From Pseudomonas sp. B33.4 (GTDB lineage: Bacteria > Pseudomonadota > Gammaproteobacteria > Pseudomonadales > Pseudomonadaceae), in NCBI RefSeq assembly GCF_034555375.1, contig NZ_CP140706.1, forward strand, positions 2,285,001-2,349,000: a stretch of DNA of 64,000 bases, read 5' to 3'. Below the pieces are notes generated by a model. That model searched no databases, had not been told where the DNA came from, and saw only the letters and a list, made by a program, of their open reading frames with translations. Made by a program: the position numbers and the translations under genes. Of the stretch, positions 17,440-58,890 are shown piece after piece. How positions within the stretch are numbered: position 1 is the first letter of the stretch; every line of letters begins with the position of its first letter.

Positions 17440-17859
17440 TCAGTTCGCGCGCTTGTCATCGCCGGGCTCGCCGCCGACATGCACACCGCGGTCATCCCCA
17501 GGTTCAGCATGGGTGCCGTTGCGGCCGGAGGAGGCGGTGTTGCCTGAGTGGCCGGTGCCGTGGTCGCTGCCGCTGTGGCCACTGTTGCTGCCACCGCCAC
17601 CGCCACCGCCACTGCCACTGCCGCTGTTGCCTCCGCCGCCGTGACTGCCTCCGCCGCCGCTTCCGCTGCCACCACCACTACCGCCGCCTCCACCACCATT
17701 GCCGCCGTGGCCACCTCCGCCACCTCCGCCGCCACCACCGCTTCCCCCATCCTTGGCATAAGCACTGGACACCCCGGACAAACCATCCGGAACCAACACC
17801 GTAGAAGCCGACAGAACTGCGCCGATGGCCATTGCGAGCACGAGCTTTTTAATGTGCAT
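17440..17859 (-). CDS. Secreted glycine-rich protein
   Basis: The protein has 139 residues. A Sec signal peptide covers about residues 1-35 (MHIKKLVLAMAIGAVLSAS then SSAYA). The mature part is mostly Gly, Ser, His and Asn runs ending in an acidic, His-containing tail (HAEPGDDRGVHVGGEPGDDK). GGAAA precedes the ATG. It follows gspF in the same direction after 75 bases and could be the third gene of the gspG-gspF unit. The low-complexity His/Asp-containing sequence suggests a matrix, structural or metal-binding role; there is no recognised domain. Confidence 0.7.
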   Translation of the reverse strand: MHIKKLVLAMAIGAVLSASTVLVPDGLSGVSSAYAKDGGSGGGGGGGGGGHGGNGGGGGGSGGGSGSGGGGSHGGGGNSGSGSGGGGGGGSNSGHSGSDHGTGHSGNTASSGRNGTHAEPGDDRGVHVGGEPGDDKRAN

Positions 17860-17934
17860 ATCGTTTTCCGTCTTTGTGGTTTTGTTGGGAACGTAAAAGT
17901 GCGTTGTTGCAGGGACCGGACGCGTTCCCGGGGG

Positions 17935-55988: not shown

Positions 55989-57479
55989 ATGCAGCGACTG
56001 GAAGCACAAAAAAACTCTGCACCGAACGCATCGGTCGCAGGCAAGGGCTGGCGCGAGCAGTTCAATCTGCTGCGCTGGTTCTCGCTCGCGAGTTTTTTCA
56101 TCATCGCGGCGGTGGCGCTAGGTCTCGGTTACATCTCCACGCGCTTCGTCGTCACCGAAAGCGTCGAGCGCGATGCCCTGCTGACCGCGCAATTCGTTCA
56201 GGCCATTGGGGCGGCGGAAATGCGCCACGCCAAAATCAATCCGAACCGGACGATGGGCGAAATGCTCGACCCGCGCCAGGACAACCACTATCCCGATGTT
56301 GATCCGGCATTACAGCTGTCGGCGCGCACCGAATTTCTCGATCACGTCGAACACCTGCCAGACATTCTCCTGGCCACGGTGTACGCGTTGGACCGCACGG
56401 TGATCTGGTCGACCAACGCTGAGCTTATCGGCGTGCACATCAAGGATGACGATGAGCTCGACGAGTCGTTCGAGATGAAAGTGCCGGTGTCCTCCAGCTA
56501 CCACAAGATCGACGATGAAAAACCCGAGCAGCAAATGTTGCGCGAACCGAAATACCTGTTCATCGAGAACTACATCCCGATGTTCAACGCCGACAAAAGT
56601 AAAGTCGTCGCCATGGTCGAGGTCTACAAGGAGCCGGCGGATCTGGTCGATCGTATAGACCGTGGATTTGCCTCGATCTGGGCGGCGACTTGCTTCGGCG
56701 GTGCGGCGATCTTTCTAGCCTTGTTCTGGATCGTCCGCCGCGCGGCGAAATTGCTGCAGAGCCAGCAGCAACAGCTGATCAGCAACGAAACCTTCGTCGC
56801 CCTCGGCGAGATGTCCTCGGCGGTGGCGCACAGTTTGCGCAATCCACTGGCGACCATTCGCTCCAGCGCCGAACTGGCCCAGGAAGTCGCCAGCCCCGGT
56901 GCGCAGCGCAACATTGGCGACATCATCAGCCAGGTCGATCGCATGTCGCGCTGGGTGCGCGAACTGCTGGTGTCGCTGCGGCCGATGAATGACGACGGCG
57001 AGGCGGTGGATCTGGTCATGGCGGTCGAAGACACCTTTGGCGCCTTCGAAGCGTTGATCAAACGCAGCAACGTCGAAGTGCGATTCAGTCCGCAAAACTG
57101 CGCACCGGTCGTCAGTCAAAAGGTGCTGCTCACGCAAATACTCAATAGCCTGTTTGCCAACGCCCTCGAAGCCATGCCCAAGGGCGGCGTGCTCAGCGTC
57201 GAATTCGAGTCGCCGCAGCCGGACAGCGTGCGCGTGACGGTGATCGACACCGGCAAGGGCATGAGCGCGCAGCAGCAACTGTTGGTGTTCAAACCGTTTT
57301 TCACCACCAAACAGGGCGGCCTCGGGGTTGGCCTGGCGTTGGTCAAAAGAATCATGGAGCGGTTTCAGGGCTCGGTCGTCCTGACCAGCAAAGAGCAGGA
57401 AGGAACCCGCGTCAGTCTCAACTTCAAAGTGGCATCGGGAGGGGAATATGGAACACAGCATTCTGCTGGTCGAGGATGA
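55989..57479 (+). CDS. mnxS2: Membrane sensor histidine kinase, MnxS2-like
   Basis: The protein has 496 residues with two membrane helices (about 30-52 and 232-258). Its periplasmic domain (TMGEMLDPRQDNHYPDVDPA) closely matches the one in the kinase at 50347. The kinase core has His281 in VAHSLRNPLATIRSSAEL, an N-box (ILNSLFANALEAM), and IDTGKGM and GGLGVGLALVKRIM. TATA-rich sequence at 55953-55971 may be its promoter; there is no sigma-54 site. It overlaps the regulator gene by 32 bases, so it is the cognate kinase. Confidence 0.87.
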   Translation: MQRLEAQKNSAPNASVAGKGWREQFNLLRWFSLASFFIIAAVALGLGYISTRFVVTESVERDALLTAQFVQAIGAAEMRHAKINPNRTMGEMLDPRQDNHYPDVDPALQLSARTEFLDHVEHLPDILLATVYALDRTVIWSTNAELIGVHIKDDDELDESFEMKVPVSSSYHKIDDEKPEQQMLREPKYLFIENYIPMFNADKSKVVAMVEVYKEPADLVDRIDRGFASIWAATCFGGAAIFLALFWIVRRAAKLLQSQQQQLISNETFVALGEMSSAVAHSLRNPLATIRSSAELAQEVASPGAQRNIGDIISQVDRMSRWVRELLVSLRPMNDDGEAVDLVMAVEDTFGAFEALIKRSNVEVRFSPQNCAPVVSQKVLLTQILNSLFANALEAMPKGGVLSVEFESPQPDSVRVTVIDTGKGMSAQQQLLVFKPFFTTKQGGLGVGLALVKRIMERFQGSVVLTSKEQEGTRVSLNFKVASGGEYGTQHSAGRG

Positions 57480-58890
57480 CGAACTGCTGGCCGAAAATAT
57501 TCAGACCTACCTGGAGCGCAAGGACTTCGAGGTGACGGTCTGCCATTCGGCTGAAGACGCGCTGGAGCAATTGGGCAGCTTCATGCCTGACATCGTGCTG
57601 ACCGACAACTCGCTGCCGGGCATGAGCGGTCACGACCTGATCCAGAAGCTGCGCATCAGCGCGCCGGATCTGAAAGTGATCATGATGACCGGTTACGGCA
57701 ACGTCGAAGATGCCGTGGTGGCGATGAAGGAGGGCGCCTTTCATTACGTCACCAAACCGGTCGCGTTGCAGGAACTCAAACTGCTGCTCGACAAGGCGCT
57801 GGCGACTGAACGGATGGAGCGCACGCTGTCGTTCTATCAGGAGCGCGAGGCGCAGAAATCCGGGGTGCAGGCGCTGATTGGCGACTCGGCACCGATGCAA
57901 TATCTGAAAAACACCATCGGCCAGTTGCTCGATGCCGAGCGGCGCATGGCCAACACCGATCTGCCACCGGTCTTGGTCGAAGGCGAGACCGGCACCGGTA
58001 AAGAGTTGGTGGCCCGCGCGCTGCACTTCGACGGCCCGCGCAGCAAAGGCCCGTTCATTGAATTCAACTGCGCGTCGATCCCGTCGAATCTGGTCGAGTC
58101 GGAGCTGTTCGGGCATGAGAAGGGTGCATTCACCGATGCCAAGGATCGCCGGGTCGGACTGGTGGAAGCGGCGGACGGCGGCACGCTGTTTCTCGATGAG
58201 ATTGGTGAGATGGACCTGCTGTTGCAGGCGAAGATCTTGAAGTTGCTGGAGGATCGCACCATTCGCCGCGTCGGCTCGGTGAAGGAGCGCAAGGTCAATC
58301 TGCGGGTGATTAGTGCGACCAACTGCAACCTTGAGCAGATGGTCCAGCAGGGCAAATTCCGCCGCGATCTGTTTTTCCGTCTACGGATTATTTCGATCAA
58401 GGTGCCGCGCCTGTATGCGCGGGGTGAAGATATCTTGCTGCTGGCGCGGCACTTCCTTGCCAGTCACGGCAAACGCTATGGCAAACCGAACCTGCATTTC
58501 AGCCAGCAGGCCGAGGAGCTGCTGCTCAGTTACACCTGGCCGGGCAACGTGCGCGAACTGCGCAATATGCTCGAACAGACGGTGTTGCTGGCGCCGAGCG
58601 ACACGATTGCCGCGCATCAATTGAACGTGTGCATGAGCCTGTGTGACGAGTTGCCGCCGCAGCATCAGCATCAACACCACGAACCTGTGTCGCCCTACGA
58701 ACCGCGTCCGGCGAGCAATATGGAGTCGATGAACCTGCCGGAAGTCGAGCGCGACATGGTGCGCAAGATGCTCGACAAGACCGACTGGAACGTCACCAAA
58801 TCCGCGCGCCTGCTGGGCCTGAGCCGCGACATGCTGCGCTACCGCATCGAAAAACTCGGCCTCGCCCGGCCGGATAAACGGCAGTGGTAG
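57448..58890 (+). CDS. mnxR: Sigma-54-dependent response regulator, MnxR-like
   Basis: The protein has 480 residues with GGGAGGGGAAT before the ATG. The receiver domain has phospho-acceptor Asp53 (VLTDNSLPG). The AAA+ sigma-54 activation domain has Walker A GETGTGKE at 179-186 and the sigma-54 contact loop as GAFTDA at 226-231, in place of the usual GAFTGA. A linker with QHQHQHH near 405-411 leads to a Fis-type helix-turn-helix (NVTKSARLLGLSRDMLRYRI). It is predicted to bind the CCCC-N6-GGGG palindromes and activate the sigma-54 promoters of mnxG, the secretion/curli operon and mcoA. Confidence 0.9.
   Translation: MEHSILLVEDDELLAENIQTYLERKDFEVTVCHSAEDALEQLGSFMPDIVLTDNSLPGMSGHDLIQKLRISAPDLKVIMMTGYGNVEDAVVAMKEGAFHYVTKPVALQELKLLLDKALATERMERTLSFYQEREAQKSGVQALIGDSAPMQYLKNTIGQLLDAERRMANTDLPPVLVEGETGTGKELVARALHFDGPRSKGPFIEFNCASIPSNLVESELFGHEKGAFTDAKDRRVGLVEAADGGTLFLDEIGEMDLLLQAKILKLLEDRTIRRVGSVKERKVNLRVISATNCNLEQMVQQGKFRRDLFFRLRIISIKVPRLYARGEDILLLARHFLASHGKRYGKPNLHFSQQAEELLLSYTWPGNVRELRNMLEQTVLLAPSDTIAAHQLNVCMSLCDELPPQHQHQHHEPVSPYEPRPASNMESMNLPEVERDMVRKMLDKTDWNVTKSARLLGLSRDMLRYRIEKLGLARPDKRQW

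Follow-up and report, generated by a model that had tools for sequence, protein, structure and literature searches.

A palindrome and sigma-54 promoter layout common to manganese oxidase, type II-like secretion and curli genes in Pseudomonas

The MnxS/MnxR kinases and regulator are reported to be essential for manganese oxidation in Pseudomonas putida GB-1 (PMC3056050, PMC11409713), and the mnxG and mcoA promoters of that strain, for which IHF and sigma-54 sites are predicted, need manganese (PMC11930936). The GB-1 mnxG operon, mcoA and mnxS1, mnxS2 and mnxR are the same genes as those found at 17.9-58.9 kb of the stretch of Pseudomonas sp. B33.4 analysed here (G000:C1:2285001-2349000, 64,000 nucleotides within a 6.6 Mb genome; hereafter the window), where they lie together with gsp genes for a type II secretion system (T2SS)-like machine and with curli (csg) genes. 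The six-gene mnxG operon and the order mnxS1-mcoA-SCO-mnxS2-mnxR are also those of Pseudomonas MS-1/DSV-1, in which the gene numbers imply 17 intervening genes from the SurA gene to mnxS1; the main text of that account covers the oxidase and kinase genes only, with no mention of curli, csg, amyloid or secretion (PMC11409713).

De Vrind et al. (2003, cited in PMC3056050) reportedly tied the Mn-oxidising factor of GB-1 to a Gsp-related pathway, a T2SS-like machine linked to manganese oxidation as is proposed here. The P. putida strains compared in PMC3056050 have csgEFG and csgAB, and the window likewise encodes CsgA, B, E, F and G; homologues of the GB-1 manganese genes occur in KT2440, W619 and F1, and the passages of that paper dealing with them do not join them to curli. 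According to a 2012 paper, no csgD lies near the csg operons of Pseudomonas except in P. stutzeri, and other regulators were suspected (PMC3521004). Unlike in these earlier accounts, csgEFG here end a gsp operon and the candidate regulator of curli is MnxR with sigma-54. Compared to PMC11930936, which does not mention curli or csg, sigma-54 promoters are extended here to gsp-csgEFG and to the curlin operon (P0004-P0003-csgB-csgA, P0003 and P0004 being apparently secreted proteins), together with a shared palindrome. Outside subscription papers, PMC3056050 was the sole paper found to mention both mnxG and curli; no description of curli within manganese oxidation of Pseudomonas, and no joint treatment of mnxG and type II secretion, was found in that literature, and in the papers sampled for curli and RpoN in P. 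putida, curli appeared only in reference lists.

The locus probably constitutes one regulon for extracellular manganese oxidation, an explanation to which we assign a probability of roughly 0.6, in which MnxR and sigma-54 would act as the switch and an amyloid matrix would hold the oxidases and the oxide. Gene co-occurrence and the common switch suggest that amyloid deposition is part of how the bacteria produce manganese oxide, with curli appearing to go with MnxG and the gsp genes apparently serving McoA as well. This bears on the reasons for bacterial manganese oxidation and on how the oxide is kept around the cell; if true, a shared promoter code governs amyloid, export and oxidases together, which is testable in P. 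putida GB-1, and curli would here serve mineral formation.

A preliminary description of the window had listed these genes and proposed that they form one system. Profile matches bear out its MnxG-like and McoA-like oxidases with their copper-loading proteins (NF041487, PF07731, PF02630), the split gspG/gspF and the gspE-secretin-pseudopilin genes (Pfam, and TIGR01710 for GspG) and csgE/F/G with two curlins (Pfam), and its kinase-kinase-regulator set proved to comprise two kinases with a single sigma-54 response regulator. A lytic transglycosylase and a receiver-only regulator were added to the inventory, and the curlins, whose coordinates were corrected (Table 1), were assigned to an apparent operon with the previously unnamed P0003 and P0004. 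The proposal of one system stands in part: it is favoured by co-occurrence, by retention in dispersed genomes, by the shared palindrome and sigma-54 promoter and by the joint absence of mnxG and csgEFG in seven named species, and it is opposed by the persistence of gsp without MnxG.

Palindrome and sigma-54 promoter layout

The palindrome CCCC-N6-GGGG, followed after approximately 70-120 bp by a sigma-54-type promoter, was found upstream of mnxG, the gsp-csgEFG operon and the curlin operon; a degraded form of it precedes mcoA. That these units have the layout in common is a new finding of this analysis. All four exact palindromes of the window lie in these promoter regions (34 places genome-wide), compared to 1.5 expected in the window, and 9 of 100 shuffles reach four. 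Taken singly, both TGGCAC-N5-TTGC (9 found, 9.08 expected) and TTCCCC-N6-GGGGAA with 3 mismatches (34 found, 28.4 expected) occur at chance level in the window; the case rests on the palindrome and sigma-54 site combined and on the relatives.

A strict composite (the palindrome, 62-92 bases, then TGGCA-N7-TGC) was sought in 159 Pseudomonas genomes drawn evenly from the genus, in which counts are of related genomes and not of events; labels G### denote sampled genomes and L### loci taken from relatives. The search returned 97 rows, one place in G089 being counted twice, compared to 8 for the reversed control. The four promoters account for 75 rows (gsp-csgEFG 45, curlin operon 15, mnxG 13, mcoA 2), and 13 of the 22 rows elsewhere fall in MnxG-positive genomes, with the one in G076 at the gsp position judged by its distance from mnxG. 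Almost every genome with MnxG had a composite match (50 of 51, of which 49 had it at one of these four promoters as judged by distance), compared to 9 of the 108 without, one of which was the gsp promoter of G021.

The promoters were also assessed one by one for a palindrome (no more than one mismatch) lying 50-150 bases 5' of a sigma-54 score of at least 10, with dinucleotide shuffles as control. The sample comprised 40 of the 52 P0004 genomes, 20 of the 51 with MnxG and 20 of the 50 with McoA, hand-chosen among previously unviewed ones with good contigs. The curlin-operon promoter passed in 40/40 (12/800 shuffles), with an exact palindrome in 37/40 (0/800), the mnxG promoter in 15/20 (5/400), exact in 12/20, and the mcoA promoter in 18/20 (8/400), exact in 2/20, the shuffles giving no exact palindrome for either oxidase gene. 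At gsp-csgEFG, the composite with an exact palindrome was present in all 79 readable named loci. A spacer of 6 was commonest at the curlin operon (37/40), gsp (79/79) and mnxG (17/20), with spacer 7 also seen in 77/79 gsp promoters, owing to longer C or G runs; at mcoA, spacer 6 occurred in 3/20 and spacer 7 in 8/20. The gsp promoters hold 30 different palindromes with arms common to all, and in a motif-anchored, hence partly circular, alignment of 40 curlin promoters the arms and the -24/-12 elements were among the best conserved blocks. Counted from the rows of the promoter-by-promoter test, the -12 element is GC in 31/40 relatives and GT in 9/40. No exact palindrome was found at the nine loci with curli clusters of another type (L022-L030; 11-20 kb each).

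Several observations weigh against this interpretation. The palindrome was first spotted by eye in this window and then tested elsewhere, and the Fisher and binomial values ignore kinship, the palindrome value also its discovery here. In the window and its own species group, the curlin promoter reads GG-N10-GT instead of GG-N10-GC at -12; it ranks only 18th among the sigma-54 sites of the window, and the gsp site only seventh. The mcoA palindrome is degenerate (exact in 2/20 by the composite test, 3/20 by spacer count), 5/20 mnxG promoters failed, with G058 passing only by a weak, distant site, and G060 has MnxG yet no composite match. Finally, nine composite matches lie at other loci in 8 of the 108 MnxG-negative genomes, which would fit a palindrome bound by a different sigma-54 activator or by a nucleoid protein, with MnxR acting elsewhere. 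This appears improbable, since MnxR is the sole sigma-54 activator among the scanned locus proteins and the composite occurs almost exclusively in genomes that have MnxG and the MnxS2-type kinase. MnxR was taken as the activator on the first of these grounds and because MnxS/MnxR are reported to be essential in GB-1.

Two further observations concern these promoters. Extra composite matches at G126:C54:15501, G025:C16:119539 and G133:C98:172 seemingly fall between mnxG and gsp and look like copies of the promoter. In G087, a second MnxG (75%) with a beta-propeller gene faces an other-type curli cluster head to head (L023 5269-14879, G087:C4), with an integrase-like remnant, judged by eye, in between; considered as a further case of the regulon, this mnxG was rejected and the arrangement treated as chance, as it has a sigma-54 site upstream but L023 holds no exact palindrome.

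Co-occurrence, dispersal and loss

MnxG was found in 51 of the 159 genus genomes and in none of the 292 other genomes of the order sample. Those 51 genomes all have the secretin at no less than 72% identity; G021 has a copy truncated by a contig end, and in eight further genomes the match reaches only 34-37% identity. McoA occurred in 50 genomes, 48 of them with MnxG; the three MnxG-positive genomes lacking an McoA match (G060, G062, G129) all have CsgF. The MnxS2-type kinase and P0004 were each found in 52 genomes, P0004 being fragmented in G049. CsgF, found in 55, was present in 50/51 genomes with MnxG vs 5/108 without (Fisher 2.5e-34, a value that ignores kinship). These five MnxG-negative clusters (L024-L028) are of a diverged type, with the order csgE-csgF-csgA-csgG-csgB and a CsgG only 49-53% identical, and four MnxG-positive genomes (G042, G060, G087, G150) hold a second cluster of the other type. 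The preliminary description had taken independence of curli and gsp from mnxG/mcoA among relatives, together with expression independent of MnxR, as the observation that would count against it. On the genomic half of this, curli of the type in the window was not seen without MnxG in the 159 genomes, gsp was (in G021 and in the seven named species), and MnxG was found without curli once (G136). It counts against the proposed regulon that the genomes are related, so that these counts are non-independent events.

As P0004 lies within 30 kb of mnxG in 32 of the 51 MnxG-positive genomes (counted from the distance rows), the block could be inherited as a neighbourhood, with curli there by chance and travelling with the locus. 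The dispersed genomes make this very improbable. The distance from P0004 to csgF, 33 kb in G015 and G096, grows to 98-424 kb in G057, G072, G101, G102 and G109, with the promoter kept (adjacent csgB and csgA were checked in G101 only); in G101, where 424 kb separate P0004 from csgF and 603 kb separate it from mnxG, csgB and csgA still follow downstream and the palindrome and sigma-54 site stand upstream. The csgF-secretin distance is 1.8-2.4 kb wherever both were found on one contig, the mnxG-csgF distance is mostly ~14-16 kb, reaching 179 kb in G101, and mcoA and mnxG are 226 kb to 1.4 Mb apart in five genomes. In the four scattered genomes G109, G045, G103 and G101, slt-gspG adjoins mnxS1, and P0003 is followed by csgB and csgA in the last three, the G109 stretch ending at P0003. 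With the motif fixed beforehand, exact palindromes were found in all four upstream of both gsp-csgEFG (sigma-54 score 17.7) and P0004, and one-mismatch palindromes upstream of mcoA; at mnxG the palindrome was exact in G045, one-mismatch in G101 and only distant in G109 (the G103 region lies outside coverage). Each promoter examined in these genomes had a strong sigma-54 site.

Losses were traced in 80 named loci, of which 78 could be judged for csgEFG and 56 for csgA/csgB, with MnxG searched in 13 genomes. csgEFG was present in 70 of the 78. All eight species lacking it were searched for MnxG, which was absent from seven and present in one (L176), and the five csgEFG-positive species searched alongside all had it. 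csgA/csgB were missing from 13 of the 56 loci, namely the eight without csgEFG and L118, L140, L154, L178 and L180, in which csgBA perhaps lies further off. The seven species without csgEFG and MnxG, among them P. jessenii, retain sco1, the tested gsp genes, three to five McoA matches each, some partial, and the cytochrome gene, which is split in two in L186. Their sco2 is decayed, beta-propeller scraps remain in two (L170, L186) and no SurA gene was found, so the state is one of loss. The gsp tree groups them in a single 11-member clade (support 1.0) that also holds L180 and L187, both intact, and L184 and L185, two loci with only a beta-propeller fragment that end within or before the csgE position and stood outside the MnxG search. 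The seven joint absences count as a single loss; accepting the 0.81 support that joins L175 to L180 and L187 would make it two. The same is seen in G021: mnxG and the beta-propeller gene are gone and P0003/P0004 are kept, the genome has no CsgF, and the 1.8 kb after P0003 contain no csgBA.

Two features of these losses argue against a single tied system. G136, apparently the same as L176, keeps MnxG after curli loss, with csgE cut, csgF and csgG gone and csgA and csgB left as scraps; and gsp genes persist without MnxG and csgEFG, which means that gsp is not tied to curli. The former would suit a regulon in which MnxR drives a general programme of late-growth surface life and curli is co-regulated for adhesion, with no part in manganese oxide formation. 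Such a separate role fits the promoter results equally well, and mnxG and mcoA of GB-1 are reported to be switched on in stationary phase (PMC11930936). It is nonetheless considered unlikely, as a general adhesion role predicts neither that curli of this type was seen only with MnxG in the 159 genomes nor that csgEFG is absent jointly with MnxG where gsp and McoA remain.

Proposed regulon, export and matrix

In the favoured regulon, MnxS1 and MnxS2 would act on MnxR, which would bind CCCC-N6-GGGG and activate the sigma-54 promoters of four units, the mnxG operon, gsp-csgEFG, P0004-P0003-csgBA and mcoA. The SCO proteins would load copper in the periplasm, and the type II-like machine would take the folded oxidases, and perhaps P0003 and P0004, across the outer membrane. 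At the same growth stage, CsgG, CsgE and CsgF would export CsgB and CsgA to form amyloid around the cell, and this matrix may hold the oxidases and the oxide. A stronger form, which we regard as tentative and somewhat short of an even chance, is a dedicated biomineralising matrix, with oxidases and curli amyloid sent out by two machines of one operon under one switch; MnxG would work on the amyloid or inside it, and the fibre would fix the oxide outside the cell. Curli would then be a mineralisation organ instead of a general adhesin, and would therefore be lost together with MnxG.

P0003 and P0004 have signal sequences, judged by eye, and their main domain belongs to no known family, with 1947 relatives at E 1e-5 among 8000 candidates scored; no PDB relative of P0004 was found. 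Some P0004 relatives, among the matches listed, are labelled 'glycoprotein gp2' in a public source, apparently a misannotation. A long form of McoA (1131-1194 aa; L006, L010, L014 and L019, from G109, G045, G103 and G101) ends in a module of ~195 aa sharing 48-52% identity with the P0003 C-terminus and absent from the window McoA (935 aa). The common module hints at a shared way of export or attachment.

This module, together with the retention of gsp and McoA matches in the seven species without MnxG, and of P0003/P0004 in G021, is also consistent with a gsp machine that exports long McoA and P0003/P0004, MnxG leaving by another way. That division of cargo is unlikely, if worth serious weight: the secretin is present in all 51 MnxG-positive genomes, including the three without any McoA match, and the Gsp-related pathway of GB-1 was reportedly tied to its Mn-oxidising factor.

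Gene content of the locus

Almost all genes at 17.9-58.9 kb fit the manganese oxidase, gsp, curli and regulator set (Table 1), and, among named secretin loci, the closest belong to Pseudomonas, e.g. P. fluorescens, P. koreensis and P. chlororaphis. GspG passes its NCBIfam equivalog level for the canonical T2SS, GspD, GspE and GspF do not, and GspC had no match among the scanned proteins, some operon genes being without a family. Curli (type VIII secretion) is represented in Pfam terms by CsgG, CsgE, CsgF and curlin repeats in both subunits, and CsgC and CsgD had no match among the window proteins scanned, a subset of the open reading frames (ORFs). The frames of csgE, csgF and csgG, which close the gsp operon, overlap or nearly abut, and the curlins, P0003 and P0004 form one apparent operon on the minus strand. 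McoA was identified as a multicopper oxidase by its domain and by its published neighbours, and MnxR, beside two kinases, combines a receiver, a sigma-54 activator domain and a Fis-type helix-turn-helix.

Table 1. Features of the locus in window coordinates
Feature	Position	Strand	Evidence
gspF-like inner membrane protein	17935..19140	-	PF00482 192.7 bits; NCBIfam GspF 282.2, below cut-off 424
gspG major pseudopilin	19137..19613	-	PF08334; TIGR01710 190.9 bits, above cut-off 88.85
slt, secreted lytic transglycosylase	19771..20379	+	PF01464 98 bits
Palindrome CCCC-N6-GGGG, candidate upstream activating sequence (UAS) 5' of mnxG	20396..20409	.	exact match
sigma-54 promoter of mnxG	20509..20525	+	rank 1 among window sites; GG-N10-GC
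mnxG, manganese-oxidising multicopper oxidase	20581..26415 (start revised)	+	NF041487 3919.1 bits, above equivalog cut-off 3100
Beta-propeller (YVTN) protein, mnxG operon	26672..28639	+	
SCO1/SenC copper chaperone (first)	28636..29304	+	PF02630
SCO1/SenC copper chaperone (second)	29301..29921	+	PF02630
Cytochrome c and periplasmic binding protein fusion	29931..31481	+	PF13458, PF00034
SurA-like chaperone	31497..32258	+	PF13624
Palindrome pair 5' of gsp-csgEFG operon	32267-32280, 32309-32322	.	exact matches
sigma-54 promoter, gsp-csgEFG operon	32397..32413	+	rank 7 in window; GG-N10-GC
Receiver-domain-only response regulator, opens gsp-csgEFG operon	32481..33008	+	PF00072 74.9 bits
gspE-like ATPase	33090..34796	+	PF00437 416.7 bits; NCBIfam GspE 494.2, below cut-off 630.25
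Platform gene 1, no family	34702-35580	+	provisional start
Platform gene 2, PilN-like	35543-36127	+	provisional start
Platform gene 3, GspM/PilO-like	35928-36662	+	provisional start
Platform gene 4, no family	36659-37174	+	provisional start
Secretin, N-terminal TPR	37171..39018	+	PF00263 136.7 bits; NCBIfam GspD 153.9, below cut-off 351.35
Pilin-like gene 1	39015-39494	+	prepilin motif
Pilin-like gene 2	39488-39874	+	prepilin motif
Accompanying gene after pilin-like pair	39828-40388	+	no family
csgE	40262..40777	+	PF10627 124.7 bits
csgF	40774..41205	+	PF10614 111.5 bits
csgG curli export pore	41234..42094	+	PF03783 267.4 bits
csgA-like curlin P0001, 483 aa	44297..45748	-	PF07012 78.4 bits; below NCBIfam CsgA and CsgB cut-offs
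csgB-like curlin P0002, 154 aa	45776..46240	-	PF07012 69.7 bits
P0003, secreted Ig/cadherin-type protein	46313..48541	-	
P0004, secreted paralogue of P0003 N-terminus	48577..49923	-	no known family
sigma-54-like promoter, P0004-P0003-csgB-csgA operon	49984..50000	-	-12 element GT; rank 18 in window
Palindrome between P0004 and mnxS1	50090..50103	.	exact in 37/40 relatives
mnxS1 sensor kinase	50107..51795 (true start probably ~50.3-50.4 kb)	+	PF02518, PF00512
One-mismatch palindromes 5' of mcoA	51844-51880		
sigma-54 promoter of mcoA	51934..51950	+	rank 2 in window; GG-N10-GC
mcoA multicopper oxidase	51988..54795 (start revised)	+	PF07731; published gene order
SCO1/SenC and cytochrome c	54792..55895	+	
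mnxS2 sensor kinase	55989..57479	+	
mnxR sigma-54-dependent response regulator	57448..58890	+	PF00158, PF00072, PF02954

The starts of mnxG and mcoA were revised downstream because the sigma-54 sites fall inside the longer ORFs, and probably lie near the positions given. For the same reason, and because the affected matches start near the N-terminus, readthrough of in-frame TGA/TAG codons in the MnxG and McoA of relatives was rejected, the stops being taken as upstream of the true starts. The long mnxS1 ORF contains an inverted repeat at 50140-50240, REP-like by eye, which places the true start probably downstream of it. The ~2 kb gap between csgG and csgA (42095-44296) holds repeats and small ORFs with no known tie to the system, including a membrane-type protein without a Pfam family at 43666-44145. 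A second protein with a CsgG domain (94.6 bits) is encoded elsewhere in the genome, at G000:C1:2827981-2828511.

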